Origin: Chloroflexota bacterium
GTDB lineage: Bacteria; Chloroflexota; Limnocylindria; Limnocylindrales; CSP1-4
Assembly: GCA_012026785.1 (NCBI GenBank)
Contig: VEOW01000101.1
Span: 1 to 42,084, forward strand
DNA length: 42,084 nt
Direction: 5' to 3'
The notes under the pieces are model-generated. The model saw only the letters and a program-made list of their open reading frames with translations. It searched no databases and was not told where the DNA came from. Positions 21,947 to 39,789 of the stretch are shown in pieces. The translations under genes and the position numbers were made by a program. The number at the start of each line of letters is the position of its first letter. Within the stretch, counting starts at the first letter, position 1.

Positions 21947-22108
21947 CCCGGTGCGGTGGGCTGGTAGCCGCGCGTGACCTCGAGGGCGTGGTGCGGCCGG
22001 CGCGGTCGGACGCTCGCGGAAGGAGTCAGGGTCGCCCGGCGTCAGGCCCCCGGCCCGGGAGACAATAGGGCGGTCTTAGAGTCAACCGGAACGGGGTTCA
22101 GTCAAGCA

Positions 22109-25100
22109 TTGCCGTCATTCGAGGTTGGTCAGCGCGTTCGACTGCCTGGCGATTCCGTCCTCGCGACGGTCGAAGCCGCCTCCGAAACCCCCAGCGGCTG
22201 GCAGTTGTTCGTCGACAACGGGTCGGGAGCCTACCGGAAGGTCCTCCTCACCCCTGAGCTTGCCGAACAGGTCACCGTGGTCGCCGAGGACGGCGCTGCC
22301 GAGCCGAGCGTCGTCCTAGCCGGACTCTGGACTGAGTGGATGCGCGCTGCGACCCTCGAGTCCAAGGCAACGACCCTCGCCACGACACCCCTCCGCCCGT
22401 ACGCGCATCAGACGAATGCGGTCTACGGGTCGATGCTGCCGCAGCCGCGGCTGCGCTTCCTCCTCGCCGACGAGCCTGGCACCGGCAAGACGATCATGGC
22501 CGGGATGTATCTCCGCGAGATGCAGCGGCTCGGCTTCGTGCGCAAGGCGCTCGTGATCTGCCCAGCCCACCTCGTGGAGAAGTGGCGCGCCGACTTCGAG
22601 CGGTTCTTGGGCGGGGGCCTCCGGCGCATCACGGCCGACACCGTCCGCGAGGGCGCCCTCGCCATTGACCACGACTTCTGGGTCACCTCGCTCGACCTGG
22701 CGTCGGTCAATGCGCAGGTGCAGGAGGCCATCCGGCCGGACCGGGTGGGGTGGGACGTCGTCGTCATCGACGAGGCCCACCGCATGACGCTCTCCGCCCA
22801 GTCCTACTACCAGCTCGGCAGGCTAATGAGCGGTGCGCCGCGCGTCCTGCTCATGACCGCAACGCCCCACCGCGGCAAGGAGGCGCTGTTCCGCGGACTC
22901 CTGCACCTCGTAGACCCGGACGTGTTCCCGTCGGTGGAGGAGAGCGACGACCTCGGCCGCCAGCTCAAGCCCGGAGCCGTGCACTTCCTCCGTCGGATGA
23001 AGGAGGACCTGGTCGACTACGACGGCGTGACCAGGCTGTTCAAGGGTCGCCGAGCCCAAAACCTCTCGGTCGCCCTGAACGCGACCGAGGAGGCGTTCTA
23101 CCAGCAGGCGCTAGCGCTCGTGGACCAGTACTTCCCGCCCGCGGCGGTGACGCTGGCGAAGATGGTCTACGGCAAGCGAGCGGCATCGAGCCTGTACGCC
23201 CTGCGGGAGACGCTGAAACGCCGGCGCGATCTCATGGGCAGCGACAGCCCGACGCATGCGGCGATGCTCGCCGACCCCGAGGACGAGGACGAAGCCGGGC
23301 GGGACCTCGCGAAAGTCGTCGTCGAGCAGTCGCTCTCGGCCCGCGCTGAGAAGGAGGACCTCAAGGCGGCGATCCGCCAGCTCGACCAGGTGCTGGAGAA
23401 GCCCGACTTGGCGGTGTCGAAATGGCCGCGCATGGTCGAGGAGTGCCTCTCGGACAACGGCATCCTCCCCGGCAACGGCGAGCAGGTGGTGGTGTTCACC
23501 GAGTTCGCCGACACAGCCGAGTGGCTGGTGGCGCGGTTCCGAGACGCTGGCTACACCGCGGAGCGCTACTCGGGTCGCGACCCCGATCCGGTCCGTGAGT
23601 CCGTCCGGCAGCGGTTCGCCAAGGCTGAGTTCCAGGTCATCGTCTCGACCGATGCCGGCAACGAGGGCATCGACCTGCAGACCGCCCACGTGCTCGTGAA
23701 CTGGGACATCCCGTGGTCCCTCGTCCGACTCGAGCAGCGGATGGGCCGCATCCACCGCGTCGGCCAGACTCGCGACGTCGAGCTCTACAACCTGGTCGCC
23801 ACCGGCACTAATGAGGGCCAAGTCCTCGAGGTCCTCCTGAGCAACTTCGTCGTCGCCGCCAACCAGCTCGACGGGAAGATGTTCGACAGCCTGAGCCTGC
23901 TCGCCGAGCTCGTGAACCTCGACTTTGAGCAGACGCTCGCGCGGACCTACGACTCCCCCGAGCGAGCCAGCGCGGCGCTCGCGACCGCCAAAGCGGCGAC
24001 CGCGGAGCGGCTCGCTGCCGCCGCGAAGCGCGCGGCGGCCGAGGAGGATGCGCTGCGAAGCGCCGTCGACATCGCGAAGGCGGTCGCGGCGCTGCAGGAG
24101 GAGACGCTCGAGCGGATCAACCCACGCATCGTCGAGGCGTTCCTTGAGCGGCTCGACCACGCTGGCCTGTTGAAGGTCGAGGCCCACGCGGCTGGTCCAG
24201 GGATCTTCGTCGTCTCCGGTCTGGAAGGGACCAGCCTCAACCGCGCGTCCGCCCTCGTCGCGACGAGCGGCGCCGCACTGGAGAGCGCTCGGGCAGCAGG
24301 GGCTGATGTCTCTCAGGCCCTCCCACTCGGCCCAAGCGATCCGGCATTCCGCGCGATCGTCGACTCAGCGACTCGGAACGTCCGCCCCGCGCTCTTCGAG
24401 GGCGGCCGCCTCGTCGACCGGACGTCGGTGACCGACTATACGCTGGTCGCCTACGAGGCCGAGGTGGTCGAGTTCGGCGGCCAGCGCCGATCTACATGGC
24501 CGTTTCTGGTGCGGGTCGATGACACGGGCTCCCGGAGCCTACGCTGGGAGTGGCTCGCGAACCTCGAGCCCAGCGCACTCCAGCCGACCGCATTGCACCC
24601 GGGGCGGGTGCTGGACGCTGACCAACGAGCTGCCGATGTCGTCGCAACCGAGCGGTCCAGGCGCGGAGACGTCCTCGACGCGTGGATGACCGGGGCCGTC
24701 GTGGAGTTGGAGCGGCTCCCCTCGGCACTCACCTCGCACATCGACGACGCGACCACCCGTGTCGCGGCGCGCAAGCGGGTCGAGAAGGCCGTCGAGAATC
24801 GGCTCACTGAGCTGCGGCGGATGGCCGTCGTGGATGTTGGCGAGCCGCGACGCCTCGGCTGGGCGGCCGTCACGGCGGCCGGAGCGCCTCTGACGACGAT
24901 CGAGGCAGATAGCGAGGAGATCGCGATGCGCCTTGTCGCGTCGCTCCTTCGCAAAGCGGGCTGGTCTGTCGCCGACGTCCACCTCGAGCCGCGCGGCTAC
25001 GACCTCCTCGCCCGCAAGGGACGCGACCAGCGGAGCATCGAGGTCAAGGGGGTCTGGGACCTGGCTAGCTCTCGCGGCGTGAGGATGACCGGGCACGAGC

Positions 25101-25294
25101 TCCTCATCGCACGTCAGCTCGGCGATGCCTACTGGCTATACGTCGTCGACCAGTGCCAGGACGGCACGGGACGGCTCTTTGGCGTCTACCAGGATCCTGC
25201 CGAGCGGTTCGAGGGCCTGATGAAGGACCTGACCACAGTCGCGCTCCCCGGCAGCGCCCTTGCATCGGCTCGGGCGGGAGATTCGCCGACATGA
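22109..25294 (+). CDS. SNF2/DEAD-like helicase with C-terminal DUF3883-like domain (defence-associated); TTG start proposed
   Basis: FLLADEPGTGKTIMAGMYLREM (motif I), VVIDEAHR (II), LLMTATPHRGKEALF (III), VVVFTEFADTAEWL, VSTDAGNEGIDLQTAHVLVNWDIPWSLVRLEQRMGRIHRVGQ (V/VI); C-terminus AGWSVADVHLEPRGYDLLARKGRDQRSIEVKG. Confidence 0.92.
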   Translation: MPSFEVGQRVRLPGDSVLATVEAASETPSGWQLFVDNGSGAYRKVLLTPELAEQVTVVAEDGAAEPSVVLAGLWTEWMRAATLESKATTLATTPLRPYAHQTNAVYGSMLPQPRLRFLLADEPGTGKTIMAGMYLREMQRLGFVRKALVICPAHLVEKWRADFERFLGGGLRRITADTVREGALAIDHDFWVTSLDLASVNAQVQEAIRPDRVGWDVVVIDEAHRMTLSAQSYYQLGRLMSGAPRVLLMTATPHRGKEALFRGLLHLVDPDVFPSVEESDDLGRQLKPGAVHFLRRMKEDLVDYDGVTRLFKGRRAQNLSVALNATEEAFYQQALALVDQYFPPAAVTLAKMVYGKRAASSLYALRETLKRRRDLMGSDSPTHAAMLADPEDEDEAGRDLAKVVVEQSLSARAEKEDLKAAIRQLDQVLEKPDLAVSKWPRMVEECLSDNGILPGNGEQVVVFTEFADTAEWLVARFRDAGYTAERYSGRDPDPVRESVRQRFAKAEFQVIVSTDAGNEGIDLQTAHVLVNWDIPWSLVRLEQRMGRIHRVGQTRDVELYNLVATGTNEGQVLEVLLSNFVVAANQLDGKMFDSLSLLAELVNLDFEQTLARTYDSPERASAALATAKAATAERLAAAAKRAAAEEDALRSAVDIAKAVAALQEETLERINPRIVEAFLERLDHAGLLKVEAHAAGPGIFVVSGLEGTSLNRASALVATSGAALESARAAGADVSQALPLGPSDPAFRAIVDSATRNVRPALFEGGRLVDRTSVTDYTLVAYEAEVVEFGGQRRSTWPFLVRVDDTGSRSLRWEWLANLEPSALQPTALHPGRVLDADQRAADVVATERSRRGDVLDAWMTGAVVELERLPSALTSHIDDATTRVAARKRVEKAVENRLTELRRMAVVDVGEPRRLGWAAVTAAGAPLTTIEADSEEIAMRLVASLLRKAGWSVADVHLEPRGYDLLARKGRDQRSIEVKGVWDLASSRGVRMTGHELLIARQLGDAYWLYVVDQCQDGTGRLFGVYQDPAERFEGLMKDLTTVALPGSALASARAGDSPT

Positions 25295-28047
25295 GGATGA
25301 TCGAGCGGTGGTTCCCGTGCGCCGAGGTCAGCGACGCCTCCGAAAGCGGATGGGGCAGCGGCAAGAGCGAGAAGGCGCTGTTCATCTGGTTCGCGGCGAG
25401 GCCCCTCGCCCAGGCGAAGGCCGCCGTGATCACTAGCCTCCTGCCGTGGCCGGACGACACGCGGGAGCAGGAGCGACTCAAGGACCTGGTTCGCCGGGCG
25501 ATGACCGACCGGGACGCCGCGCACGATGAGCTCGTCCGGGAGCTTGCGAAGGCATATCCGAACGGCGCCTCGATGCTCGATCCTTTTTCCGGTCGGGCGA
25601 TGATCCCACTGGAGGCGGCTCGACTTGGCGTGAGGGCGTGGGGCATCGACTACGCGCCCGTCGCGACTCTCGCGGGGACCCTCCTCGCCGACTACCCGCT
25701 GCGTGATTGGTCAAGCGAGCCGCCCCTGCCAATCGGACCGCCACTCGGATTCGCGGAAGATCGGCTAACAGGTGATGTCGCGCGCGTCCTCGACGAGATC
25801 GGCCGCCGGTATGAGGCCTCCATGGCGGAGTTCTACCCGAAGATCAACGGTAAACAGCCATGGGGCTACCTGTGGGCGGTCACGCTGCCATGTCAGGAGT
25901 GCGGGCGTCGCTTCCCGGTGACCGGGTCGCTCGTCCTTCGGCACCCGCTACCTGCCAAGAAGGACCTAGGCCAGAGCTACCGCATCGCAGTCGACCGCGG
26001 CTTGGGGACGTTCCGCGCGGTCGTTCATGAGGGGCCGCCGATCGGCCAGCCGACGCTCGTGACGGTGACCCGTGGGGGCAAGGCGCAGCGCGGCAAGGCG
26101 GCCGTGTGTCCGTTCTGCGAGCACGTGCACCCCAAGGACGTGCACACTCGCCTCGCGGCCGAAGGCCTTGGCAATGACGCACTCCTTGTCGCCGCTGACC
26201 TTGACGACGTGATTGGCAAGGTATTCCGAGAGCCGACCTTCGAAGAGCGAGCCGCCGCTGAGGCCGCCACTGCCGCGCTCCGGAACGAATTGCCGTTCGG
26301 CTCCGGATTGCCGGCTGTTCCTGACGAGGCAATTCCCGACGGCGATTACGACACCGTGCGGCCATCGCTCTATGGGGCCGCTAGCTACGGCGAACTCTGC
26401 AACGACCGCCAGAGTCTGGGGTTCGTGCGACTATGCCGCGTTATCAACGGCTTCGCGGACGAGATGGGCGCGGCCGGGCTTAGTCAGGATTACCTAGCCG
26501 CTCTGGCGGGCTATGCGGCGGCCGGTTTCTGTCGGAAGCTCAAACGATCGACTCGAGGTGCCGCACTTCTGCCGATGCTCTATCCCACGAGTAACAGGGT
26601 TGCCGTCAACCACATCTTCGTCAATGAAGCCAGCATCGCCTTCAGTTACGACTACTTCGAGACAGGGCTCGGAGACGGACCTGGTTCCTGGCCGTCGATT
26701 GTTCACGACACGGTCGCTGTGCTTCGGAATCAGAGCATTCGCCGAGCGGGACGACCAGCGGTCGTACAGCGTGGAAGCTCCGTAGCGCTCCCACTCCCCA
26801 CCGCAGCTATCGATGTCGTGGTCACCGACCCGCCATATGACGACATGATCGACTACTCCGACGCCTCCGACCTCTTCTACGTCTGGCTAAAGCGCGCGCT
26901 CGTGTCCACGCATCCGGAGTTCGGGATGACAGCGGATCCGCGCGGGGTCCAGGAGAAGAGCGAGGAGATCATCGTCAAGCGGGGTGGGGCCGGCGTAGGT
27001 GACCACCGGACCCGCGAGTTTTATGACTCCATGCTCGCGAAGTCGTTCGCCGAGGCGCGGCGGGTAGTCCGCGACGATGGCGTAGTCACGATCGTCTTCG
27101 GTCACGGGGACCCCGAAGTCTGGCATCGGCTACTCGGAGCGATCACGGCTGGTGGCCTGTACCTGACCGGATCCTGGCCGGCCAAGACGGAGGCGGGCGG
27201 AAAGGCAGGCTCAGCGAACATCGTCACCACGCTGACGCTTTCTTGTCGACCCGCGTCGGCGAACCGCTCGGCTGGTCGGGTCGACGACGTCGACGACGAG
27301 GTTCGGCGCGAGGTCCGCGCACGCGTCCCCGAGTGGGAGCGAGCCAACCTCGCCTTGACCGACCAGCTCATGGCCTCGGCGGGGCCTGCCATGGAGGTTG
27401 TCGGCCGGTACTCTGCTGTGCTCGACCAGCTCGGCGAGCCGATCGACACAACTCGGTATCTCGTGCTGGCGCGCCGAGCCGTCGAGGAGGCAGCCGCGAT
27501 TAGGATCGAGGACCTGCCGCTCGAGACATTCGATGCCCGCACCCGCTTCGCGCTGTTCTGGGTTCGCCTATACGGCCGGGGAGTAGCTCCGAAGTCTGAG
27601 GCGCGTTGGCAGGCCATGGTCTCGGACATCGCATTGCCCGAGATCAATGACATCCTCCGAGATGGAGACGGCGGCAAGGGAGTGCGGATCGGGTTCGGGC
27701 GAGAGATGAGGGCTCCGATCGATGAGACCTCCGCCGTGATCGACGTCGCCCTCGCGATGGCTCGAGCCTGGCCGGAGGGACTCGCCGCTGTTGCCGAGGT
27801 CCTGGCCGCGAGTGGACGCGACGGCGAGGACCCGCACCTGTGGGCGGCGGTGGGGTTCTTGTCCGCGCGACTGCCTGACGCGGACGCAGATGTCCAAGCA
27901 TGGAATGGCATCGTGCGGGGACGGCGAACCGTCGCGTCTGCCACTCTAGGCGTCGTCAAGGAGCGCTCGATCAAGCTGGCCAGGCAGAAGCAAGCGGACG
28001 ATCAGATGCGACTCTTCGACCCGGTCGACGGAGGAGGCGAGGGATGA
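25291..28047 (+). CDS. DUF1156-type adenine-specific DNA methyltransferase with Zn-ribbon
   Basis: MLDPFSGRAMIPLEAARLGVRAWGIDYAP, VVTDPPYDDMIDYSDASDLFYVWLKR (DPPY), CQECGRRF...CPFCEHVHP zinc ligands; ATGA overlap with helicase gene. Confidence 0.92.
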   Translation: MRMIERWFPCAEVSDASESGWGSGKSEKALFIWFAARPLAQAKAAVITSLLPWPDDTREQERLKDLVRRAMTDRDAAHDELVRELAKAYPNGASMLDPFSGRAMIPLEAARLGVRAWGIDYAPVATLAGTLLADYPLRDWSSEPPLPIGPPLGFAEDRLTGDVARVLDEIGRRYEASMAEFYPKINGKQPWGYLWAVTLPCQECGRRFPVTGSLVLRHPLPAKKDLGQSYRIAVDRGLGTFRAVVHEGPPIGQPTLVTVTRGGKAQRGKAAVCPFCEHVHPKDVHTRLAAEGLGNDALLVAADLDDVIGKVFREPTFEERAAAEAATAALRNELPFGSGLPAVPDEAIPDGDYDTVRPSLYGAASYGELCNDRQSLGFVRLCRVINGFADEMGAAGLSQDYLAALAGYAAAGFCRKLKRSTRGAALLPMLYPTSNRVAVNHIFVNEASIAFSYDYFETGLGDGPGSWPSIVHDTVAVLRNQSIRRAGRPAVVQRGSSVALPLPTAAIDVVVTDPPYDDMIDYSDASDLFYVWLKRALVSTHPEFGMTADPRGVQEKSEEIIVKRGGAGVGDHRTREFYDSMLAKSFAEARRVVRDDGVVTIVFGHGDPEVWHRLLGAITAGGLYLTGSWPAKTEAGGKAGSANIVTTLTLSCRPASANRSAGRVDDVDDEVRREVRARVPEWERANLALTDQLMASAGPAMEVVGRYSAVLDQLGEPIDTTRYLVLARRAVEEAAAIRIEDLPLETFDARTRFALFWVRLYGRGVAPKSEARWQAMVSDIALPEINDILRDGDGGKGVRIGFGREMRAPIDETSAVIDVALAMARAWPEGLAAVAEVLAASGRDGEDPHLWAAVGFLSARLPDADADVQAWNGIVRGRRTVASATLGVVKERSIKLARQKQADDQMRLFDPVDGGGEG

Positions 28048-30941
28048 CCGCGGCGGTGACGCCCTGGTGGAACGCGATGCGGTTGCGACGCGAGATCGTG
28101 GCCGGCTCCGGCGTCATCGACGATGTCCAGATGTCGCTCTTCAACGCCGTCCAGGGGACCGCAGGAGAGCGCCCGCCCTACGCGGACGCCTCCTACTACG
28201 GCGAGATCACGCACCCGAGCCCGAACCTCGTCGAGTTCGTCGCGCGGGTGGCCGTCCGCCTCGGGGGTAGGGGGCGATACACAGCAGCCCCGGCGCTCTG
28301 GCGACTCGACCAAGCGATGGGCGGCGGCAAGTCGCACGCCATGATCGGCCTCTGGCACCTCGCCGCCCACCCTGTGGAGTTCCGGGCCACTGACATCGGC
28401 GGCGCGGCGTGGGCGACGGCGTCGAGGATCATCGGCGGGCAGCTTCCCGCCGACCTCGACAACCCTCAAGTTGTCGTTCTCTCGTGCGACAACATGACAG
28501 CCGGGCGGGGGGACCCGTCGATCGACGGTCCCGCGGCGACGCTCTACGAGCGCTTCCTCTGGCGGCTGTTCGGTGGCGACCACTCGCTGTTCAAGCGCTA
28601 CCAGCCGCACTTCGCTGACAAGTCGAAGATTGCCGAGGCGATCGGCGCGATCGGACGGCCCGTGCTGATCCTCGTCGACGAAGTGCTCGACTACGTGCGG
28701 CAGCTCTCGCTGGCCGAGCACGGCGACCTCGCGACTCGGGACATGGCCTTCCTGCGTGCACTGACCGACACGGTCAACGACATCCCGCACGTCGCGATGG
28801 TGGTCGTGATGATCCGCTCCGAGGATGACTCGATCGTCCTCGACGCCGCCGGTCTGGCTCGTCGCCAGGAGATCGAGGACCTGCTCGTCCGCAACGGCAG
28901 GAAGACCACGGTCACGTCGAACACCGACTTTGCCGAGATCATTCGCCGGCGGCTTTTCGAGACGAGCGCGCCCGCGGAGGTGGTCGGCGCGACCAGCGAC
29001 CTATACGAGCGGACCATGAAGGGCACATGGGCCGAGCGAGTCTTCGCCCACCTGCCACGTCCGGCGAGTGGCGAGTTCGCAAGCGAGGTGGCCAGGTGCT
29101 ACCCGTTCCACCCTGCACTGATCCACCTCGCCGAGCAGGAGTGGGCGCCGGTCTCGGGCTTCCAGAAGGTTCGGTCGACCATACTCATCTTCGCGGCGAC
29201 GGCGTATGCGCAGTCTGAGCGCGGCCGGGCGGACGAGTGGGCACCGCCCCTCGTCGGGCCTGGCGACCTTCCGCTGTCCTCTCCCCAGGTCCGCGAGGCG
29301 ATCATCGGGTCCGGCCTCATCGCCGACGACAAGACCGCCGCCAACTATCGTCAGCTCGCCGCGACGGACATCGTCAGCGACGACGGTGATCGCGGCGCCG
29401 CGCGGCTGCTCGACATCCATCGGGCCAAGGCACCGTTTGCGGCCGCGAATCCGCGCGCCGCCGAGCGCATGGCCACGGCGCTCTTCCTGCTCTCCATCGT
29501 CGGCGCCCGGGCGCAGGGCCGGCAGGGGGCGACGGAGGGCGAGCTGAAGGCCGCCGGGTTCGTCCCGGACGTTTCGTTCGACGTGGCGCAGGCTGAATCC
29601 GTCCTCGCCGAGCTGGGCGACCCGGATGCCGGCCTGGCCGCGCTCGAGAAGATCGAGGGCCGAGGTGGGCAGCCGGCGCGCTGGTTCCTGTCGACCAGGC
29701 AGACGCTCAACATGCTGTTCCGGGCCGCTCGCTCGAGCGTCACGGACGATGAGCGCGACGAGGAGTTCGTGCGCGTCGTCGATCGGCTTGCCACGACTGG
29801 ACCCTTCAAGACGAAGCTGGTTGTCGAGGCCAAGGCCGAAGAGCAGGACCCGAGGCCGCTCCGCACGATCCTTGAGACGGCGAGCATCGACGATGCCCGC
29901 AACACGCGGCTTGTCGTCCTCGATCCGCGACGGTTCAGCTTCCTGAACGGGATCGACCACGAGACGCGCAGCGCGATCCGGGCAGCGATGGGCGTCGGAT
30001 CGGACAAGTTGCCGGTGCAGTGGGCGTCGTCGGCCGTGTTCGCGGTCGTCAACACTCAGCGGCGCCGCAACGCGCGAGCCGCGGTCACCGACTACGTCGC
30101 CTGGAGCCGCGTCGTGGACAACGCCGCAGTCAAGGCCGACGACGACATGAAGGTGGAGGGGGCGGAGAAGCGATCCGCGGCCCGCAAGGTCATGGACGAC
30201 GCGGTCCGCCGTGCGTACCAGCACATCGTCTACCTCGGCCGCGGCGACGGCGGCGAGGGCAGGGCCGACAAGGAGTTCCGGTTCGAGCAGGACAATCAGT
30301 CCGCTCTCGATGGCAGCATCGTCTGGGCCAAGTTGAAGGACCTCGGCAAGACGGTCGGCGTCGGCGAGTTCACAGCCAAGGCCCTCCTTCACAACTTGGC
30401 GGATGCCGACTACTCGCGCCCGCTGGACGAGGTGCGAGACCTCTTCTGGAACGCACCGCGGATGCCCCTGCTACCGGGTGGTGATGCCGACCTGCAGCGC
30501 GCGATCTTCGAGGCCGTACTCTCCGGCCAGCTGACCTTGGTGGGCGACGACGGGACCGAGCGCGTGGTCACGAAGGCGAGTGAGATCGGCGTCGGCTCCG
30601 CGTCGCTTCGACTCGCTCACCCTTCTGAGGTAGGGCCCGAGCCTTCCGAGGGACTGGAGTCAGGACCTCAGCCGGGTCCGGAGCTAGGGCCTGAGCCGGG
30701 CGGTTACGGCTCGACCCCGGATGTGCAACTGAAGGTCTCGCTGAACACGAACCTGGAGGACGTCGGTCGGAGATCGGCGGTGTTCAAGCTCCTCGACGAC
30801 CTTGCAGCCGCGGTCGACGGCCAGGAGGCGTCCCACATCCAGATATCGGTCAGCGTCGTGGTCCCCGAAAAGAGGGCCGAGCGCCTCTCGGGTCGTGCTG
30901 AGGCAGCGGGCGGATCGACAAGTTCGACGCCACTCGACTAA
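28044..30941 (+). CDS. DUF499-type AAA+ ATPase
   Basis: ALWRLDQAMGGGKSHAMIGLWHLA Walker A, VLILVDEVLDYVRQL Walker B; QVVVLSCDNMTAG; adjacent DUF1156 methylase; ATGA overlap. Confidence 0.88.
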   Translation: MTAAVTPWWNAMRLRREIVAGSGVIDDVQMSLFNAVQGTAGERPPYADASYYGEITHPSPNLVEFVARVAVRLGGRGRYTAAPALWRLDQAMGGGKSHAMIGLWHLAAHPVEFRATDIGGAAWATASRIIGGQLPADLDNPQVVVLSCDNMTAGRGDPSIDGPAATLYERFLWRLFGGDHSLFKRYQPHFADKSKIAEAIGAIGRPVLILVDEVLDYVRQLSLAEHGDLATRDMAFLRALTDTVNDIPHVAMVVVMIRSEDDSIVLDAAGLARRQEIEDLLVRNGRKTTVTSNTDFAEIIRRRLFETSAPAEVVGATSDLYERTMKGTWAERVFAHLPRPASGEFASEVARCYPFHPALIHLAEQEWAPVSGFQKVRSTILIFAATAYAQSERGRADEWAPPLVGPGDLPLSSPQVREAIIGSGLIADDKTAANYRQLAATDIVSDDGDRGAARLLDIHRAKAPFAAANPRAAERMATALFLLSIVGARAQGRQGATEGELKAAGFVPDVSFDVAQAESVLAELGDPDAGLAALEKIEGRGGQPARWFLSTRQTLNMLFRAARSSVTDDERDEEFVRVVDRLATTGPFKTKLVVEAKAEEQDPRPLRTILETASIDDARNTRLVVLDPRRFSFLNGIDHETRSAIRAAMGVGSDKLPVQWASSAVFAVVNTQRRRNARAAVTDYVAWSRVVDNAAVKADDDMKVEGAEKRSAARKVMDDAVRRAYQHIVYLGRGDGGEGRADKEFRFEQDNQSALDGSIVWAKLKDLGKTVGVGEFTAKALLHNLADADYSRPLDEVRDLFWNAPRMPLLPGGDADLQRAIFEAVLSGQLTLVGDDGTERVVTKASEIGVGSASLRLAHPSEVGPEPSEGLESGPQPGPELGPEPGGYGSTPDVQLKVSLNTNLEDVGRRSAVFKLLDDLAAAVDGQEASHIQISVSVVVPEKRAERLSGRAEAAGGSTSSTPLD

Positions 30942-31157: not shown

Positions 31158-31517
31158 GTGAGGTCGTTGGCTGAGAAGCTCCACCCCGACCACTTCTCAG
31201 CGATGAGCGGCAAGATGGCCGCGATCATCGGATATGTCCTCGGCGAGTCCTGGACCGAGCCCGAGATCAAGGCAATGTCGGTGACGTCGGACGGCTACGT
31301 CACGTCGGAGAGCGAGTTCCTTGGCGAAGCGGCAGACCTTGATAGGAACATCCTGAACTTGCTCGTTGCGGCGGACCTGAGCGATGAGGAGCGGTCGGAG
31401 TTCGAGCGGCTGTACCGGGACCGCGTGGACGACTGGCGACCCGTGCTCTCGGGTCCCGCGCCTGCGACCGGCCGACTCATTCGGCCAGACTTCGGGGCAC
31501 CGGCCGCCCGCGCCTGA
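31158..31517 (+). CDS. Hypothetical small acidic protein at the end of the defence operon
   Basis: 119 aa, GTG start, plausible codon usage and acidic helical content (DLDRNILNLLVAADLSDEERSEFERLYRDRVDDW). Confidence 0.6.
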   Translation: MRSLAEKLHPDHFSAMSGKMAAIIGYVLGESWTEPEIKAMSVTSDGYVTSESEFLGEAADLDRNILNLLVAADLSDEERSEFERLYRDRVDDWRPVLSGPAPATGRLIRPDFGAPAARA

Positions 31518-31697
31518 CTCCTGGCGAAGACCTCGTCTCGCAGCCTTCGATGGAGCGGGACGCATTCGGGCGTTTCGCCTCGATCTCAACCGTCACGTCG
31601 CCGTCCGATCGGACGCAAACAAGGGAAAGCCGGTGGACTTATGAGTTGGGTGCCCGCCCGAACCCCCCGTCCACTCCTCTCGCCCCTCTGCTGCCGG

Positions 31698-31714
31698 TAC
31701 ACTAAACAATACAC
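31698..31714. repeat. TACAC direct repeats, 12-nt period (TACACTAAACAATACAC), upstream of Phd-like gene
   Basis: AT-rich island with two TACAC boxes at 31698 and 31710, just upstream of TTGAAC at 31724. Confidence 0.4.
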
Positions 31715-31759
31715 AAGACTCTCTTGAACACCGGCGACGCCGATGCTACGGTCGCTGGT

Positions 31760-32053
31760 ATGGAGCACGTCATCCCAAGCGGCGCACTTCGGCGACAACC
31801 CGGTATCTGCCTCGCCCGCGCCGCACAGGGCGAGACGTTCGTGGTCCTCCGGCACGGCCGCCCGATCGCCATCCTTCGGCCACCGCGAGACGAGGACGTC
31901 ACCGAGCGGCGCTCCGCCACGCTGCTTTGGCGGAACCTGCGGGAGTTGCTTTCCGAGGGACAGCGGAAGGCGCTGCTGATCACCTGGTACGGCATGGGAA
32001 CGGCCGTCCTTGAGCCGCTTCCGTCCAACTGGGAGGAGGGAGACGAGCTGTGA
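31760..32053 (+). CDS. Phd/YefM-family antitoxin-like protein
   Basis: GICLARAAQGETFVVLRHGRPIAILRPP matches the Phd-fold pattern; ATG at 31760 preferred over TTG 31724. Confidence 0.7.
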   Translation: MEHVIPSGALRRQPGICLARAAQGETFVVLRHGRPIAILRPPRDEDVTERRSATLLWRNLRELLSEGQRKALLITWYGMGTAVLEPLPSNWEEGDEL

Positions 32054-32646
32054 TCGCTGCCGAGCTGCGGACGATGCCGATGCACAAGCTCCGGGACAAG
32101 GCCAGTCTGGCCATCGCCTACGCCGCGGCTGGCACACCGGTGATGGTTTTCACCCATGGCGACCCCTCGGCCGTCCTGATCTCGCCGGAAGAGACCGAAC
32201 GCTGGATCGCGATCGAACGTTCGCTCTCGGCGCTGCACGGGCTCGACGTGTACCCAGAGCTCGCCGATGACACCGCGAGCCTCGCTGCGGTCGTTGCCGG
32301 TCGCGAGCGTCCCAACGCGACCGCCATCAGGAGGCTCGCGCGCGAGGAGCGCCAGATCCTCGACATCCCGCGGACGATCGGGATCACCCACATCCAGCGC
32401 CGCCTTGCGTCGATCCTCGACGAGGTGGCCGAGGGTCGGCCGACGACGATCTACTCGTCGGGAGAGTTCGTCGGTGTCCTCATCACGCCCGCCGAGTACT
32501 ACCGCCTTCGCAAGCTCTCGCGGGTCGTGGCGTGGTTCCGGACCGCCGGGCTCGAGCTCGCGACTGCCGACGAAGCGGCGATCGCCGACTTCGTCCGCCG
32601 CTTCCGCGAGGGCCGCTCCTCGGCCGCCGAATCCGCGGCCGGCTGA
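32050..32646 (+). CDS. Tandem-domain Phd/YefM-like protein (two antitoxin-like domains)
   Basis: MHKLRDKASLAIAYAAAGTPVMVFTHGDPSAVLISPEE and ITHIQRRLASILDEVAEGRPTTIYSSGEFVGVLITPAEYYRLRKL; overlaps upstream gene. Confidence 0.72.
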   Translation: MIAAELRTMPMHKLRDKASLAIAYAAAGTPVMVFTHGDPSAVLISPEETERWIAIERSLSALHGLDVYPELADDTASLAAVVAGRERPNATAIRRLAREERQILDIPRTIGITHIQRRLASILDEVAEGRPTTIYSSGEFVGVLITPAEYYRLRKLSRVVAWFRTAGLELATADEAAIADFVRRFREGRSSAAESAAG

Positions 32647-32659
32647 GGAAGGCGACCGA

Positions 32660-33052
32660 ATGCGTCCTCGCGCCCGCGGCTTTGCGGCCGCTTACCTGCC
32701 GCTTATCGCCGGCTTCGCGGCGGCTCTCCTCCTGCTCACCTGGGCCGACCCCGCCCTCGCGGCCGACACCGTTCCGTCTGGCGCCCAGAAGGCGCTCGCC
32801 CCGGTCACCAAGATGATCGCGACGCTCGTCGCGATCGCGATCGGGCTCGGTATCGCGATCTGTGGTGCGGTCATCGTCTGGGGTGGCGTGGAAAAGACCC
32901 TCGCGGGCGCGAACACCGACGCCGAGCACCGCGCCCAGAAGCGCATCGCCAACGGCATCATGGGCCTCGTCTGGATGGTGCTCGCGGGCGTCATCGTCAG
33001 CACGATCACCGCGATCGCCGTCGCGTACGGCCTCATCGAGCAGCCGTTCTAG
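32660..33052 (+). CDS. TrbC/VirB2-like small membrane protein (pilin-like)
   Basis: Signal peptide ending ADPALAA, two hydrophobic segments (MIATLVAIAIGLGIAICGAVIVWGGVEKTLAG; IMGLVWMVLAGVIVSTITAIAV). Confidence 0.65.
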   Translation: MRPRARGFAAAYLPLIAGFAAALLLLTWADPALAADTVPSGAQKALAPVTKMIATLVAIAIGLGIAICGAVIVWGGVEKTLAGANTDAEHRAQKRIANGIMGLVWMVLAGVIVSTITAIAVAYGLIEQPF

Positions 33053-33065
33053 CGGTGTCGGCTCG

Positions 33066-34160
33066 ATGGTCACCCTCGCGCGACCCAGGCGGCCCGTACC
33101 ACAGGTAATCCTCCGGCTGACCGCGCCGGCGCCCATCGCGCCGCTCGCGCTGCTCCTCCTGGCCATGGCGCTCGGTGGCCTCGGTCTCACCGTTCTGGGC
33201 CGTTCGCCCAGCATGCCGGCGACCCCGGCGACCGTGATCGAGACCGAGGCCGCCCATGATCCGCACGGCGACGTGCCGCTCATCGGCGACCCGATCCGCG
33301 AATTGACGATCTGGTGGTCCGACCGGCTGGCCGACGCCAACAAGGGCGCCCTCGACAGCATGCGCGGCCGGGCGTTGACGCCGATCGACCCCTTGGAAGA
33401 CGCGGTCGTGCAGGACCTCTACGGCAAGATCCTGCTCGTCACGATCCCTTTGCTGACGCTCGGCGGGATGATCCTCGGCTACCTGATCATGACCAGCCGG
33501 ACGTCCGGCGAGTCGGCCTACACGGCGCGTGCTGTCACGCCGCGCTTTGTCGTCGGGGCAACGCTCTCGATCCTGGGGCTGTTCCTCGTGTCGGTCCTCG
33601 CCCAGTTCGTTATTGCGACCGATCTCGCGATGGTCGGCGTCTCGCTCCCCGATGGCGCCGTGGGCGATCCGCATGACTGGCCGGCCTCCGGCGGCGTGTT
33701 CACGGTGCTCCAGCACGCGTCCTTCGACCCGCGAGTTCCGGAGGGGCCCGGCAACTGGAACACCGGTGCCTGGCTGTCCGCGGGCCTCTCAGCGGCCGTG
33801 CTGCTGAACTTCGTTCAGATCCTGAACTCGGCGCTCGGGGGGTACGAGCGGCTGCTCGTTCTCGTCGGCCCGATCTGCCTCGCCGCCTACGCCCTGCCGG
33901 CCACCCAGCGGATCACGAACCTGTGGCTGCGGCTCCTGCTGGCGATCCTCTCGGTGCGCTTCGCCTGGACGATCGTCTTCGTCCTGTTCAGCGTCGAGTC
34001 GCTGGGTTACATCGGCTCCGACGGCAACCCGCCCACCGTCGCCGACACCAACTACCTCCTCGGGCTCGCGACCGGCGCGGCATTCCTCATGGTGCTGCTG
34101 GTCATCGTGCTCATCCCGCTGGCGCTGTCCCGATCGGGTCCGCTGCGGACCGAATCGTGA
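33066..34160 (+). CDS. Polytopic membrane protein, TrbL/VirB6-like
   Basis: 364 aa with multiple TM segments, between VirB2-like and PrgI-like genes. Confidence 0.55.
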   Translation: MVTLARPRRPVPQVILRLTAPAPIAPLALLLLAMALGGLGLTVLGRSPSMPATPATVIETEAAHDPHGDVPLIGDPIRELTIWWSDRLADANKGALDSMRGRALTPIDPLEDAVVQDLYGKILLVTIPLLTLGGMILGYLIMTSRTSGESAYTARAVTPRFVVGATLSILGLFLVSVLAQFVIATDLAMVGVSLPDGAVGDPHDWPASGGVFTVLQHASFDPRVPEGPGNWNTGAWLSAGLSAAVLLNFVQILNSALGGYERLLVLVGPICLAAYALPATQRITNLWLRLLLAILSVRFAWTIVFVLFSVESLGYIGSDGNPPTVADTNYLLGLATGAAFLMVLLVIVLIPLALSRSGPLRTES

Positions 34161-35569
34161 ACGAGCGCGGGATGGTCGACGTTCCCGAGAACGCCGTCCG
34201 CGACGAACCGATCGCGTTCGGCATGACCGGAGTCCAGCTCGGCATCTGCGGCGTCGCCGTCCTGGTGGCCGCGATCCTCAATCTCCTGCCGATCTGGGAG
34301 CCGATCCGCGTGATCGTGATGGTCCTCGGCGCGGGACCGTTGGTGATCGTCGCCGCCCTCCCGATTCGGGGGGAGCCCGCCTACCGCTGGCTCGTGCGCT
34401 GGATCCGTTTCCTTCGGGGCCGCCGCGTCTGGCGCGCCGAACTCGTCGCGTCAAATAAGCCGCAGATAAGTGGCGGTGAATACGGTAGTGGCGACGGGCT
34501 GGCGTCCGGGGTAGGGGATAGGGAATCCGTCCCATTGGCCGGAGCCGCCCCGATGGAGGACGATGCGACGGAGAGGATCGGCGACGCTCAGGGCGCCCAG
34601 GAGCGTGCGGACATGCAGGACCGGCCTCCGCGGCTTCGGTTGGTCAGAACCCAAGCCCCGACGGATGCCATCGACGAGCGCGACGGAGCCGCCACGCCGG
34701 AGAGCGGCGCGGTGCCGCACCTACTCGGTGGTCTGCGGATCGTCTGCTTCACGTCGTTCGTCGGCGGCGTCGGCAAGACGACCCTGGCGGTCGAGGCCGC
34801 GTCGCGCGTCGGTTCCCGGGCCCGCTACCGCACGCTCGACGGCGAGCTTCGGCCGCTTCGCGTCCTCCTCCTCGATGCCGCGCGGACCAATCCGGCAGCC
34901 GCGTTGCGGCTGGGCCTCGATGCGGCCACCGTCTCGCGGAGCCTCACCCGCTACGACTGGCCGGATCCAATCACGTTCGAGAGGCAAGCGGTGGACACGG
35001 CCCGCGGCGTAACGCTGCTGACGCTGCCGCAGCTGCCGATGCAGGGTCTCGGCCCGGAGCTGCCGTTCGGCCCGATCGAGGCGGCCGGCCTCCTCGACGC
35101 AGCGGAGCAGGCCGGCTTCCAGCTCCTGGTCGCCGACCTGGGCAACCAGATCGAGGAGGGTCATCGCCATCTCATCGGCCAGGCGGCGACCGTGCTAGGC
35201 GTCGTGACCCCGCGGGTCGAGGCACTGCCCGACGTCATCCGGATCACCTCATACGTCCGCGCCATGGGCGCGGGTCGCAAGCTCGCCTTCGTGGCCAACC
35301 GGTCGGCCGATCTCGGCTCGCTGCCGGCGCTGGTCGACGGCGAGCAGGTGCCTCTCGTCGCGACGATCGACGACCTCGGGGCCTTCGACATCGCGGGCGA
35401 CCGGGGCGTCCCGGCGTGGACCGACGACCCCGGGGTGGAGGTCAGCCTCCAGCCGCTGGCGACGGCCGTCTGGCCGCTGTTCTCGGGTGTCCCCGCCTCG
35501 AGCGAGCACCGCTTCCGGAGCGTCCTTGCCGGCGTCCGTCGGCTGCTGCACGCGGAGGAGCGGCGATGA
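34157..35569 (+). CDS. PrgI-like membrane domain fused to CpaE/MinD/ParA-like ATPase
   Basis: N-terminus VPENAVRDEPIAFGMTGVQLGICGVAVLVAAILNLLPIW...PAYRWLVRWIRFLRGRRVWRAEL (PrgI-like); C-terminus GLRIVCFTSFVGGVGKTTLAVEAASRV...VLLLDAARTNPAAALRLGL; GTG overlaps upstream TGA. Confidence 0.75.
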   Translation: MNERGMVDVPENAVRDEPIAFGMTGVQLGICGVAVLVAAILNLLPIWEPIRVIVMVLGAGPLVIVAALPIRGEPAYRWLVRWIRFLRGRRVWRAELVASNKPQISGGEYGSGDGLASGVGDRESVPLAGAAPMEDDATERIGDAQGAQERADMQDRPPRLRLVRTQAPTDAIDERDGAATPESGAVPHLLGGLRIVCFTSFVGGVGKTTLAVEAASRVGSRARYRTLDGELRPLRVLLLDAARTNPAAALRLGLDAATVSRSLTRYDWPDPITFERQAVDTARGVTLLTLPQLPMQGLGPELPFGPIEAAGLLDAAEQAGFQLLVADLGNQIEEGHRHLIGQAATVLGVVTPRVEALPDVIRITSYVRAMGAGRKLAFVANRSADLGSLPALVDGEQVPLVATIDDLGAFDIAGDRGVPAWTDDPGVEVSLQPLATAVWPLFSGVPASSEHRFRSVLAGVRRLLHAEERR

Positions 35570-36858
35570 GCGAGCTGCCGGCGGAGTTCCGCGACCGGCC
35601 ACCGGTGAGCGCGAAGACGCTGGGTTCGATCCGCAGCCGCCTCGTCGCGCGCCTGGCGCCGGAGGTGCTCAACCCGTTCGACCGGACGCCCGAGCGCGAG
35701 GCGACGCTCAAGGCGGCGATCGGCGACATCCTCGCCGATCCGGAGCTCGCCCTCGCCGCGACCCCGGCGCTGGTGGCCTCTGTCGAGGCGGCGGTGTGCG
35801 GGCTCGGGCCGTTGCAGCCGCTCGTCGACGACCCGCGCGTCTCCGACATTCTCGTCAACGCCCCAGACGCGGTCTTCGCCGAGCGGGCGGGCCGGCTCGA
35901 GGAGACGGCCGTCGCCCTCGGGTCGGCCGAGGCCCTGGTCGACATCGCCCCGCGTATCGCCGCGCTCGCGGGGCGCGAGCTCTCGGTCGCCCACCCGATC
36001 GTCGACGCCCGCATGCCCGACGGCTCTCGCGTCAACGCCGTCATCCCGCCCGTCGGCGGGCCGTACCTCGCGATCCGTAAGTTCAACCGGCTCCGGCTGG
36101 ACCTCGCTCCCGGTGGTCGTCACGGACGCGATTGGGTGACCGAGGGCGGAATGAGTCCCGAGATGGCTGACTTCCTCGCCCGGATGGTCCGGGCCAAGGC
36201 CAACATCCTCGTCGCCGGCGAGACGGGCGCCGGCAAGACGACGCTCCTGCGCTCGCTGACCGACCTGTTCGATCCGGCCGAGCGCGTCGGCGTCGTCGAG
36301 GACACCGCGGAGCTGGCACTCGAGAACCCTGACCGGTTCAACCTCGAGACGATCCACCCGCACGACCTCGCCACAGGCGAGGCTGAGAGCCGGCTGCTGG
36401 ACGTCGGCGATCTCGTCGCAAATGCGCTCAGGATGCGCCCGGACCGGCTGATCGTCGGCGAGATCCGCCTGCCGAAAGAGGCCTTCTACACGCTCCAGGC
36501 TCTCCATTCCGGACACGACGGCTCGGCGACGACGATCCACGCCTCTTCTGCCGAGGACGCATTGTTCCGTTTGGAGCTCCTCGCCCGCCAGTCGATGCGC
36601 GACCTGACAGTGGCCGACCTACGGACGTACATCGCCCGGGTCTTCGACCTAATCCTCGTCCTGCGCCGGCTGCGCTCCGGGCGCCGTGTCCTTCGCCAGG
36701 TCGCCGCCCTCGATGGCATCGGTACCGATGCCGCGTACCGCATCGTCGACGTCTTCCGAAGCGTTCGGGCAGACGGGCCCGACGCTGTGACCTGGGTCAC
36801 GACCGACGGTTGGGAACCCTCCGACCGCCTGGCGACGAGGATGGAGCTCGAAGCGTAG
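35566..36858 (+). CDS. tadA: TadA/CpaF-type secretion ATPase
   Basis: LQPLVDDPRVSDILVN, PIVDARMPDGSRVNAVIPPV, NILVAGETGAGKTTLLRSL, RPDRLIVGEIR, LHSGHDGSATTIHA. Confidence 0.95.
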   Translation: MSELPAEFRDRPPVSAKTLGSIRSRLVARLAPEVLNPFDRTPEREATLKAAIGDILADPELALAATPALVASVEAAVCGLGPLQPLVDDPRVSDILVNAPDAVFAERAGRLEETAVALGSAEALVDIAPRIAALAGRELSVAHPIVDARMPDGSRVNAVIPPVGGPYLAIRKFNRLRLDLAPGGRHGRDWVTEGGMSPEMADFLARMVRAKANILVAGETGAGKTTLLRSLTDLFDPAERVGVVEDTAELALENPDRFNLETIHPHDLATGEAESRLLDVGDLVANALRMRPDRLIVGEIRLPKEAFYTLQALHSGHDGSATTIHASSAEDALFRLELLARQSMRDLTVADLRTYIARVFDLILVLRRLRSGRRVLRQVAALDGIGTDAAYRIVDVFRSVRADGPDAVTWVTTDGWEPSDRLATRMELEA

Positions 36859-36860
36859 TG

Positions 36861-37742
36861 ATGGATACGAGGCTCCTCTCCGCTGTCCTGGCCGGCCTCG
36901 CGGTTCTCTTCGGCCTGCTCGCGTTGTTTCCAGGCAAGGCGAACGATGAGTCAGGGGTCGGCGAGTCAATCCGTGGCTGGTGGGGGAGGCGGGTGGCCGG
37001 GGCCGCCGAGCTGATTGCCAAGGCCCGCCTCGAGATGGCGCCGCGAACGCTGATCGCGCTCGCCATCGCCGGCCCGCTCGTCCTCGGTTCGTTCGGGCTC
37101 CTGCTGTCGCCGATCGTCGCGCTCGTCGGGGTCGCCATCGGCCTGCTCCTGCCCCGGGCATATCTCGACTACCTCGTCCGCGGGGAGGCTCAGGCGGCCG
37201 ACGAGGATGCGCCGCGGATCCTGCGGGCGATGGTCAACAGGGCCGCGGCCGGCGGCACGTACCCCGACCTCTTCGCCGCGGCGGCCGAGACGGCGCGCCA
37301 TCGCTGGGTCCGCTCGGACTTCGAGGAGGCGCAGTCACGCTACTACGCCGCCGAGCCGCCGGCCGAGATCCTCCTCGCCCTTCGTGGTCGGCAGGCCAGT
37401 CGCAACTTGCGCCTCGTGGTCGATGCCCTCTCGGTCGCGATCCGGACCCAGCAGCCGACGTCGGCAGCGGGTCAGGTCCTCGCCTCACTCGGCGAGGCGG
37501 CGCGGGCCAACCGCGCGATCGCCCGCCAGGCGGCAGCCGAGAGCCGGGGTCTGCGCATGCAGGCGGCGATCCTCGCGATCGTCATCCCCGCGATGTTCCT
37601 GTATCTGTCGGCGGTCAACCCCGAGCTCGTCGGACCGGTTACCTCGACGGCACTCGGCCAATACGTCCTGCTGCCGGCGGCGGTGCTGCTCGAGATCACG
37701 GGCGTCGTGCTGTCGTGGCGGGTCACGAGGCTCGAGGCGTAG
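36861..37742 (+). CDS. tadB: TadB-like type II/IV secretion inner-membrane protein
   Basis: DAPRILRAMVNRAAAGGTYPDLFAAAAE...LRMQAAILAIVIPAMFLYLSAVNPE, position after TadA. Confidence 0.85.
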   Translation: MDTRLLSAVLAGLAVLFGLLALFPGKANDESGVGESIRGWWGRRVAGAAELIAKARLEMAPRTLIALAIAGPLVLGSFGLLLSPIVALVGVAIGLLLPRAYLDYLVRGEAQAADEDAPRILRAMVNRAAAGGTYPDLFAAAAETARHRWVRSDFEEAQSRYYAAEPPAEILLALRGRQASRNLRLVVDALSVAIRTQQPTSAAGQVLASLGEAARANRAIARQAAAESRGLRMQAAILAIVIPAMFLYLSAVNPELVGPVTSTALGQYVLLPAAVLLEITGVVLSWRVTRLEA

Positions 37743-37745
37743 CCG

Positions 37746-38654
37746 ATGGTCGAGACGAGCGCCCTCCTCACCGGCATCGCCGTCTTCAGCCTGCTGATGT
37801 TCATCTTCGATCCCTGGCTGTTCCCGGCCCAGCCGAAGCTCGACGCGGTCCGGGCGAGCGTCCTGTCGCGTGAGCGGTACGAGCGGCTCGTGACGGCGGA
37901 GCGACCGTGGTGGGAGCGGCTGCTCGCTCCGGTTGCGGCGCGACTCGGCACGGCGACGCCGGCCCTCGCCAGCCAGGTCAGCGAGCGCGACATCGTGCGG
38001 GCCGGGTTCGACCCGGCGACCCTGACGCCGGCCGAGATCTATGCCGCGAAGCTCGTCCTCGGCGCCGCGGCCCTGGGGGCCGGGCTTGCGCTCACGCCGC
38101 TCTTCGAGCCCGCGCTCATCGTTGCCCTGCCGGTGGCCTTCGTCGGCTACGTCTTCCCGACCGAGTACCTGGCGTCGATGAGCCGACGCCGCAAGGCCCA
38201 GCTCCTCCGCGAGCTGCCCGACTTCCTGGCGCTCGTGCGACCCCTGTCGGAGAGCCCGGGCCTCGAGATGGCGATGTCGAGAGTCGCCGACGAGCTCCAC
38301 CCCGCTTCGGTGGGCCAGAACCTGCTCGCCAGCCAGATCCGCTCGGCGATCGCGGCTTACGGGGCCGGCGTCAACTTCTACGCCGCCCTCGCCGACGTCG
38401 CCGCCGCGGCCGATCTGGAGGAGCTCGACGACCTGGCGGTGGGGCTCGGCCAGGCCCGCAAGACGGGCAAGGGCGTGCCGGATGTCCTCGCCGAGCACGA
38501 GCGTTCCCTGCGCGAGGCCGAGCGCAACCGTCTCTTCGGAGCCGCCTCGACAGTCCAGCCGAAGCTGGCAGGCATCCTCGCGGCGGTCTATCTGCCGATG
38601 TTCATCGTCCTGATCGTCGTACCCCTGTTCATCTCGACGCTCGGGCGGATTTGA
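37746..38654 (+). CDS. tadC: TadC-like type II/IV secretion inner-membrane protein
   Basis: AQLLRELPDFLALVRPLSESPGLEMAMSRVADEL...LAEHERSLREAERNRLFGAASTVQPKLAGILAAVYLPMFIVLIVVPLF. Confidence 0.87.
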   Translation: MVETSALLTGIAVFSLLMFIFDPWLFPAQPKLDAVRASVLSRERYERLVTAERPWWERLLAPVAARLGTATPALASQVSERDIVRAGFDPATLTPAEIYAAKLVLGAAALGAGLALTPLFEPALIVALPVAFVGYVFPTEYLASMSRRRKAQLLRELPDFLALVRPLSESPGLEMAMSRVADELHPASVGQNLLASQIRSAIAAYGAGVNFYAALADVAAAADLEELDDLAVGLGQARKTGKGVPDVLAEHERSLREAERNRLFGAASTVQPKLAGILAAVYLPMFIVLIVVPLFISTLGRI

Positions 38655-38668
38655 AGGGAGGCCGGACC

Positions 38669-38860
38669 ATGCTGAGAACCCTCGCGACATTCGTGCGCCG
38701 GGCGTGGCGCGCGCTCCGCGCCGACCAGCGCGGCCTGACGACGCTGGAATACGTCATCGCCGCCGGGATCATCCTCGTCGTCCTCTCGGCCGCGATCCTT
38801 GCCTGGAACAACGGGCTCGCCCAGCGGATTGGCGACCTCGTTGGCCAGCTTCTGGCCTAG
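38669..38860 (+). CDS. Flp-type pilin
   Basis: 63 aa; DQRGLTTLEYVIAAGIILVVLSAAILAWNNGL matches class IVb prepilin G/xxxxEY + hydrophobic stretch. Confidence 0.82.
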   Translation: MLRTLATFVRRAWRALRADQRGLTTLEYVIAAGIILVVLSAAILAWNNGLAQRIGDLVGQLLA

Positions 38861-38874
38861 GGACGGGCGGGCGA

Positions 38875-39300
38875 GTGACGGTGGCGACGCGACCAGCTGG
38901 CCGGGCGGACCAGCGCGGCGGCGAGCGCGGATTGGCGACCGTCGAGGCCGTCCTCGTCGTGCCGCTCGTTCTCGTTCCGATCCTGGTCGCGGTGGTGGTC
39001 TTCGGCCGGCTCGCGCACGCCCGTCTCGTGCTCGACGCCGCAGCAGCAGCAGGGGCGCGGCAGGCGGCGGTCGTCGGGGGCGACGGATCGCTGGTCCGGA
39101 CACGGATCGCCAGCGAGCTGGCCGACGGCGGTCTCGACGCCAACCGGGTTCGAGTCATCGTCGAGCCGGCAGTCGCTGACTGGGGCGAGCCTATCCGCGT
39201 CCAGCTCTCGCTCGATGAGGAGGCCGAGATCCCGTTTGCCGGCTCTTGGGCGGTGCCACTCGAGGCCGAGTTCGTGACCCGGAGCGAGGTGACCCGGTGA
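38875..39300 (+). CDS. TadE-like pseudopilin
   Basis: ERGLATVEAVLVVPLVLVPILVAVVVFGRLAHARLVLDAAAAAGARQAAV; GTG start. Confidence 0.82.
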   Translation: MTVATRPAGRADQRGGERGLATVEAVLVVPLVLVPILVAVVVFGRLAHARLVLDAAAAAGARQAAVVGGDGSLVRTRIASELADGGLDANRVRVIVEPAVADWGEPIRVQLSLDEEAEIPFAGSWAVPLEAEFVTRSEVTR

Positions 39301-39788
39301 CAGCCTATCGAGGCGGCGAGCAAGGCCAGGTCGCGGTGTACGCCGTCCTGCTCTTCCCGGTGCTCATGCTCGTTCTCGCTCTGGTCCTGGCAGTCGGAAC
39401 GATCGAGGGGCTGCGAACGCGCCTGCGGGCGCAGCTCGACATGGCTGCCCTCGTCGCGCCCCAGGCGCTCGATCCCGACCCCCTTGCGGCGGGCGAGCCA
39501 CCCAGGCTGGACGTGGCCGAGGCCGAGCGCCTGGCCCGCGAGTACCTCGCCCGAAACCTCGCCGCGACGGGCGACGTGCTTGTCGGCTCGCCCGACGAGA
39601 TCGCCGCGGGCGCGCAGGTCGCCGTCTCCAACGAGCCGGGGCGTGATCCGATCACGGGCGCCTCGAACTCCGCCCCGACCGTCAGCATCCAGATTGCCGT
39701 CCCAGCCCGGATCCCGCTTCTCGGACTGGCCGGGATCGCGCCCGTCGTGACCATCACGATCGACGGGTCCGCAGCCGCGAGGACGTGA
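39297..39788 (+). CDS. TadE/TadG-like pseudopilin
   Basis: GEQGQVAVYAVLLFPVLMLVLALVLAVGTIEGLRTRLRAQLDMAALVAPQAL; GTG overlaps upstream TGA. Confidence 0.72.
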   Translation: MTAYRGGEQGQVAVYAVLLFPVLMLVLALVLAVGTIEGLRTRLRAQLDMAALVAPQALDPDPLAAGEPPRLDVAEAERLAREYLARNLAATGDVLVGSPDEIAAGAQVAVSNEPGRDPITGASNSAPTVSIQIAVPARIPLLGLAGIAPVVTITIDGSAAART

Positions 39789-39789
39789 C

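Follow-up and report, generated by a model that had tools for sequence, protein, structure and literature searches.

The operon described here raises the question of how a predicted defence system made up of a helicase, a DNA methylase and an ATPase could restrict foreign DNA, and where its nuclease is to be found. The operon lies on contig VEOW01000101.1 of a Chloroflexota bacterium; the window analysed is this entire contig (C3, 42,084 bp), one of 260 contigs of a fragmented metagenome-assembled genome (MAG) of 3.77 Mb. A first-pass annotation, made from the sequence alone, had reported no nuclease and considered the restriction activity unexplained. This part of the annotation was not sustained: the C-terminus of the helicase is confidently predicted from its modelled fold to be a PD-(D/E)XK nuclease, and the restriction activity is explained by this nuclease, which forms one protein with the helicase. 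The operon itself is a divergent but otherwise ordinary member of a family known from publications since 2013, the Type-1 BREX-related (BR) systems, also called Hma, in the variant without the HEPN domain.

The C-terminal domain of the helicase was matched by the Pfam family NOV_C (PF13020), which we take to be the renamed DUF3883, with 51 bits against a cut-off of 22; the other Pfam domains of the protein are SNF2-rel_dom and Helicase_C. The AlphaFold2 model of the NOV_C domain has a pLDDT of 88, and the top matches of a Foldseek search against the PDB were all PD-(D/E)XK proteins, i.e. Hjc Holliday-junction resolvases (E-value 4e-4), I-Ssp6803I, EcoRV and PvuII, with moderate TM-scores of 0.4-0.6 that support a nuclease fold rather than activity. 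The pattern E936, D965, E978-x-K980 is kept in nearly all of the 21 aligned BR-type helicases, as well as in 19 divergent copies of the domain; in the sole Type-2 helicase among the 21, the entire NOV_C domain is missing. In 2013, the DUF3883 domain of SNF2 helicases encoded in DUF499 operons was named a novel restriction endonuclease (REase) (Anantharaman et al., PMC3710099). With NOV_C/DUF3883 on the helicase, the puzzle of the "missing" restriction enzyme is removed and the trio is self-sufficient.

The assignment to the family begins with the gene arrangement. Three long co-directional frames, all intact across 8.8 kb, are joined by two ATGA stop/start overlaps, exactly as had been annotated (Table 1). 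The view of the trio as Hma-like was upheld as well, since the HmaA, HmaB and HmaC profiles of PADLOC matched the adjacent overlapping genes in this order (the bit scores in Table 1 are those of individual models, not of the full PADLOC rule set). A Pfam search confirmed DUF499 in the ATPase (46 bits; cut-off 23), the DUF3883-like end of the helicase and, barely over the cut-off, DUF1156 in the methylase (24.2 versus 24.0 bits). According to Rakesh and Krishnan 2026 (PMC12839542), such trios are Type-1 BR systems, identical to "Hma"; Type 2 BR gains a standalone DUF3780 and has an HKD nuclease, at the N-terminus of the helicase, in place of the REase, and Type 3 BR gains PglZ. The whole Type-1 core of a DUF499 ATPase, a DUF1156 methyltransferase and an SNF2 helicase is present, and the operon agrees with Type 1 in all features that allow a clear comparison, i.e. 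all but the N-terminal TUDOR domain of the helicase and the C-terminal RRM fold of the DUF499 ATPase. No Pfam match to DUF3780 or an HKD nuclease was found in the helicase or its neighbours. The absence of DUF3780, which had been remarked upon in the first-pass annotation, is expected for this subtype: it assigns the operon to Type 1, not to Type 2, and does not amount to a loss (PMC12839542).

A chance association is excluded by the PADLOC and Pfam scores and by the recurrence of this gene order, at 48-62% identity, on plasmids and on a phage contig. DUF499 relatives from the same phylum mostly reach no more than 20-30% identity, and the clade of trios with 48-62% identity over nearly the full length comprises Rhodococcus and Mycolicibacterium plasmids and one phage contig. 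Three-gene operons encoding the helicase, the DUF1156 methylase (53-54% identity in the plasmid homologues) and the DUF499 ATPase in the same order are carried by pRJH2 (NZ_CP050180), NZ_CP130955, NZ_CP054211 and NZ_CP126902; the proteins of the Rhodococcus plasmid pRJH2 each show about 48-55% identity to those of the window. The trio of the phage contig IMGVR_UViG_3300047586_000254 shows 54/62/57% identity with conserved nuclease residues; it takes up about 9 kb of 38 kb between a replication-initiation gene and the ParB-methylase, terminase and portal genes, which indicates its location inside the phage. The plasmid and phage operons share gene order and nuclease residues with the window, whereas their location differs from the chromosomal-looking island observed here. 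No conserved fourth gene accompanies the plasmid and phage copies. The phylogenetic tree of DUF499 groups the window with the phage copy, within the region of NOV_C-type systems. Another relative was found in G100, a genome of the same family. A divergent Type-1 BR/Hma clade common to plasmids, a phage and this MAG is useful for picking compact systems to test.

Several other sequences came up in these searches. The locus L001 was rejected as an independent relative because it is the same locus, 99% identical and with indels, from a second MAG of this organism. Among the INPHARED phages, the methylase found matches at 16% coverage only. More than 15 other IMG/VR contigs contain BR trios, either in the order helicase-methylase-ATPase with the NOV_C nuclease or in the order ATPase-methylase-helicase without NOV_C. 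The NZ_CP126902 helicase, as annotated, has no N-terminal part. The annotated helicase of a Mycolicibacterium vanbaalenii plasmid (L308, 6392-8992) lacks the N-terminal part with Walker A and sits in an island with genes for restriction-modification (R-M), for a GIY-YIG nuclease and for TIR-domain proteins.

It is likely, with a probability of about 0.8, that the operon acts as a Type-1 BR (Hma) R-M-like defence system in the following manner. The HmaB methylase would mark host adenines within its target motif. HmaC, the DUF499 ATPase, whose C-terminal part is presumed to bind DNA, may form or load a scanning complex, and together with the helicase it would survey incoming DNA. The RapA-like SNF2 motor would move on unmarked DNA, and the fused C-terminal PD-(D/E)XK domain would nick or cut it. 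Gene content, domain architecture, the nuclease fold, the conserved active site and the portability of the three genes support the Type-1 BR reading; adenine methylation, the self/non-self logic, the role of the ATPase and the activity of this copy are what we infer. An antiphage action is suggested by the literature on relatives: antiphage activity of nuclease-fused Snf2 proteins is credited to Liu et al. 2024 in a citation within PMC12839542 (ref. 112), and a passage of PMC11890865 lists Hma among nickase-based systems. Some observations weigh against the proposed assignment and mechanism. The HMM scores of HmaB and HmaC are moderate, and in the DUF499 tree a long stem leads to the window. 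The methylase has FSGRA in place of FxGGG in its S-adenosylmethionine (SAM) motif I, which makes its catalysis uncertain. Besides, DPPY would predict methylation of adenine at N6 or cytosine at N4, whereas Payne et al. called HmaB a 5-methylcytosine (m5C) enzyme.

The altered motif I also bears on other explanations. FxGGG is found in most relatives, FSGRA in the window and FSGRG in the plasmid members of the clade. The nuclease might be mainly an abortive-infection effector: the helicase-nuclease would sense the phage and nick host and phage DNA, growth would stop, and the methylase and ATPase would be regulators, not a classical R-M pair. The changed motif would suit such a weaker or regulatory methylase, but the conservation of DPPY, the zinc ribbon and the target-recognition region across the clade, and the arguments of PMC12839542 for an RM-like module, make this rather unlikely. 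Inactivation of the methylase at motif I was considered and rejected, and a lineage feature is likelier than decay because FSGRG/FSGRA occurs across the clade. Decay of the entire locus, kept in an inactive state by hitch-hiking, could be suspected from the departure from FxGGG, the short C-terminal domain of the ATPase and the fragmented state of the MAG; it is nevertheless improbable given three intact frames, conserved catalytic residues and a phage copy, 54-62% identical, in which this motif I variant and an equally short ATPase C-terminus recur.

An assignment to DISARM or Type-3 BREX instead of Hma/BR is highly improbable. The helicase does score up to 228 bits with DrmD models and 230 bits with the BrxHI/BrxHII models, but the HmaA score is higher (286 bits), and the best models for the methylase and the ATPase are HmaB and HmaC. 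Among the proteins scanned around the operon, none matched DrmA, DrmB or DrmC, which with a DrmMI or DrmMII methylase characterise DISARM, the likeness to DISARM being an SNF2-level one to DrmD only; PglZ, iSTAND, BrxA and BrxF, which would point to Type-3 BR or Type-3 BREX, had no Pfam match among the scanned window proteins. In the copies of this clade seen so far, no linkage to DrmABC or to BREX core genes was observed. The Type-1 BR system, with a predicted cutting or nicking domain on its helicase, is the preferred reading.

Table 1. Features of the Type-1 BR (Hma) operon; positions are those of the window.
Feature	Position	Strand	Basis
HmaA, Type-1 BR helicase-nuclease, 1061 aa	22109..25294	+	PADLOC HmaA 286 bits; SNF2-rel_dom, Helicase_C, NOV_C; RapA likeness
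N-terminal small beta domain, residues ~6-60	22124..22288	+	Five strands in AlphaFold2 model; TUDOR-like by position and strand count only
Swi2/Snf2 helicase core, residues ~85-600	22361..23908	+	Pfam, alignment, fold match
RapA-like alpha+beta region with two long helices, residues ~689-923	24173..24877	+	Secondary structure of model; RapA match
Fused PD-(D/E)XK nuclease domain (NOV_C, formerly DUF3883), residues ~930-1056	24896..25276	+	Pfam, model, Foldseek, conserved residues
Predicted active-site residues D965; E978; K980	25001-25003; 25040-25042; 25046-25048	+	Conserved in alignments
ATGA stop/start overlap, helicase to methylase	25291..25294	+	Exact in sequence
HmaB, DUF1156 adenine-type DNA methyltransferase, 918 aa	25291..28047	+	PADLOC HmaB 136 bits; DUF1156; homologues
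SAM motif I variant DPFSGRAM	25579..25602	+	Alignments
CxxC...CxxC zinc-ribbon cysteines C201, C204, C273, C276, in putative target-recognition insert	25891..26118	+	Invariant in clade
Catalytic motif DPPY	26827..26838	+	Nearly invariant in wider alignment, invariant in clade
ATGA stop/start overlap, methylase to ATPase	28044..28047	+	Exact in sequence
HmaC, DUF499 AAA+ ATPase, 965 aa, without N-terminal HEPN	28044..30941	+	PADLOC HmaC 121 bits; DUF499 46 bits; alignments
Walker A GGGKS	28320..28334	+	Invariant in both ATPase alignments
Walker B D212-E213	28677-28682	+	Invariant in both ATPase alignments
Fast-evolving C-terminal beta-alpha-beta segment, at place of published RRM-like domain	30732..30938	+	Alignment only

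The helicase frame is open from a GTG at 21974 to the stop at 25292-25294, and the position of the start is uncertain; it is most likely the TTG at 22109, where homologues start too, the phage copy with MQLEVGQ. The best solved relative of the protein, both by sequence and by fold, is RapA (about 1050 columns). In the full model, with a moderate pLDDT of 76, the beta sheet downstream of the core is broken by two long helices (residues 831-905), and an interruption of this kind is a trait of BrxHII and BR helicases (PMC12839542). The model and the full-length RapA match suggest a RapA-like architecture after the core, in which an inactive REase was not separately identified. In the methylase, the Pfam family N6_N4_Mtase scored slightly below its cut-off (25.8 versus 26.7 bits). 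A truncated or frameshifted C-terminus of the DUF499 ATPase was rejected as an explanation of its short end, since no continuation of an RRM was found in the other frames and the end point is shared by the phage copy. Rfam, promoter and terminator scans gave nothing usable.

The composition of the DNA changes at the operon: the GC content is about 0.57-0.63 between 10 and 22 kb, reaches 0.66-0.72 at the operon start and does not fall again before the contig ends. This step near 22000, from about 0.60 to about 0.68, looks as if an island begins there. The preceding part of the window (358-21613) is metabolic and encodes a LacI regulator, hydantoinase/oxoprolinase A and B, RraA-like and FAA hydrolase proteins, a branched-chain-type ABC transporter, two amidohydrolases and an ECF-type transporter with CbiQ and two ATPases. 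Downstream of the operon (31690-39800) are genes for PhdYefM (32050), a VirB2-like pilin, a VirB6-like protein, PrgI, TadA/B/C and TadE/G, the VirB2 and VirB6 names being putative and based on a reading of the sequences. This cluster, related to type IV secretion systems (T4SS) and Tad, is present in three copies in the genome (window, C177 and C55) and in several relatives.

A small sample of the cluster, selected by PhdYefM similarity (loci L286, L287, L289, L290, L291, L294, L297, L298 and L032), was examined for the genes upstream. A defence system lies within about 10 kb or less upstream of PhdYefM in all ten informative copies, and it is usually a different one: the Type-1 BR system in the window, Type I R-M in C177, Type III R-M in C55, Type-2 BR in G051, HEPN-type Type-1 BR in contig C64 of G090, Type III R-M with a ThsB-like TIR protein in its contig C13, Type III R-M in its contig C92, Type IIG with HerA in G084, and Druantia DruE in G067 and, about 9 kb away, in G019. 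In a small control of ten large open reading frames from downstream or arbitrary stretches, there was one PADLOC match, on a protein resembling topoisomerase I. The downstream flanks in G090 encode TraG/VirB4-type and HerA-type ATPases, which, together with the upstream defence systems, suggests an element that combines an apparatus for secretion or conjugation with an exchangeable defence slot; the ends, integrase and relaxase of such a T4SS/Tad-bearing element were not found. At roughly even odds, the operon would be exchangeable cargo of a dedicated defence slot directly upstream of the T4SS/Tad cluster, the cluster possibly being part of an uncharacterised conjugative-type element that occurs several times per genome in the family, each copy with its own restriction or BREX-related system. 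The recurrent slot beside the multi-copy cluster is a place to seek further defence systems in this lineage.

Between the operon and this cluster lies a gene for a 119-aa protein (31158-31517), which had no match in Pfam, PADLOC or PHROGs. It was rejected as a fourth component of the system, being absent from the phage and plasmid trios and varying in side and strand elsewhere. Its relatives in G051, G040 and G025 (71-78% identity) have SNF2-helicase defence genes as neighbours, and weaker fragments occur in G057, G029 and G026. In G025 (L097, 1806-9049), a Type IIG R-M protein of 1333 aa adjoins an HKD-Snf2 helicase (PADLOC C3a139) beside the 119-aa gene.

Among the systems described, the Type-1 BR systems of PMC12839542 share with the window the three genes, the RapA-like SNF2 helicase with a C-terminal PD-(D/E)XK REase, the DUF1156 N6-methyltransferase with a zinc finger, the DUF499 AAA+ ATPase and the absence of DUF3780 and PglZ. 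The window differs in belonging to the subset without HEPN on DUF499, in its identity of about 20-30% to the other compared members and in the FSGRA form of motif I. Hma (Payne et al. 2021, PMC8565338) likewise consists of the helicase HmaA, the methylase HmaB and the ATPase HmaC, and all three of its PADLOC models match in order; the differences are the moderate HmaB and HmaC scores and a DPPY motif of the amino-methyltransferase type here in an enzyme called m5C there. The HEPN-DUF499 R-M operons (Anantharaman et al. 2013, PMC3710099) share the SNF2-DUF3883 fusion, the methylase and the DUF499 ATPase with the window, which differs from them in having no HEPN domain.
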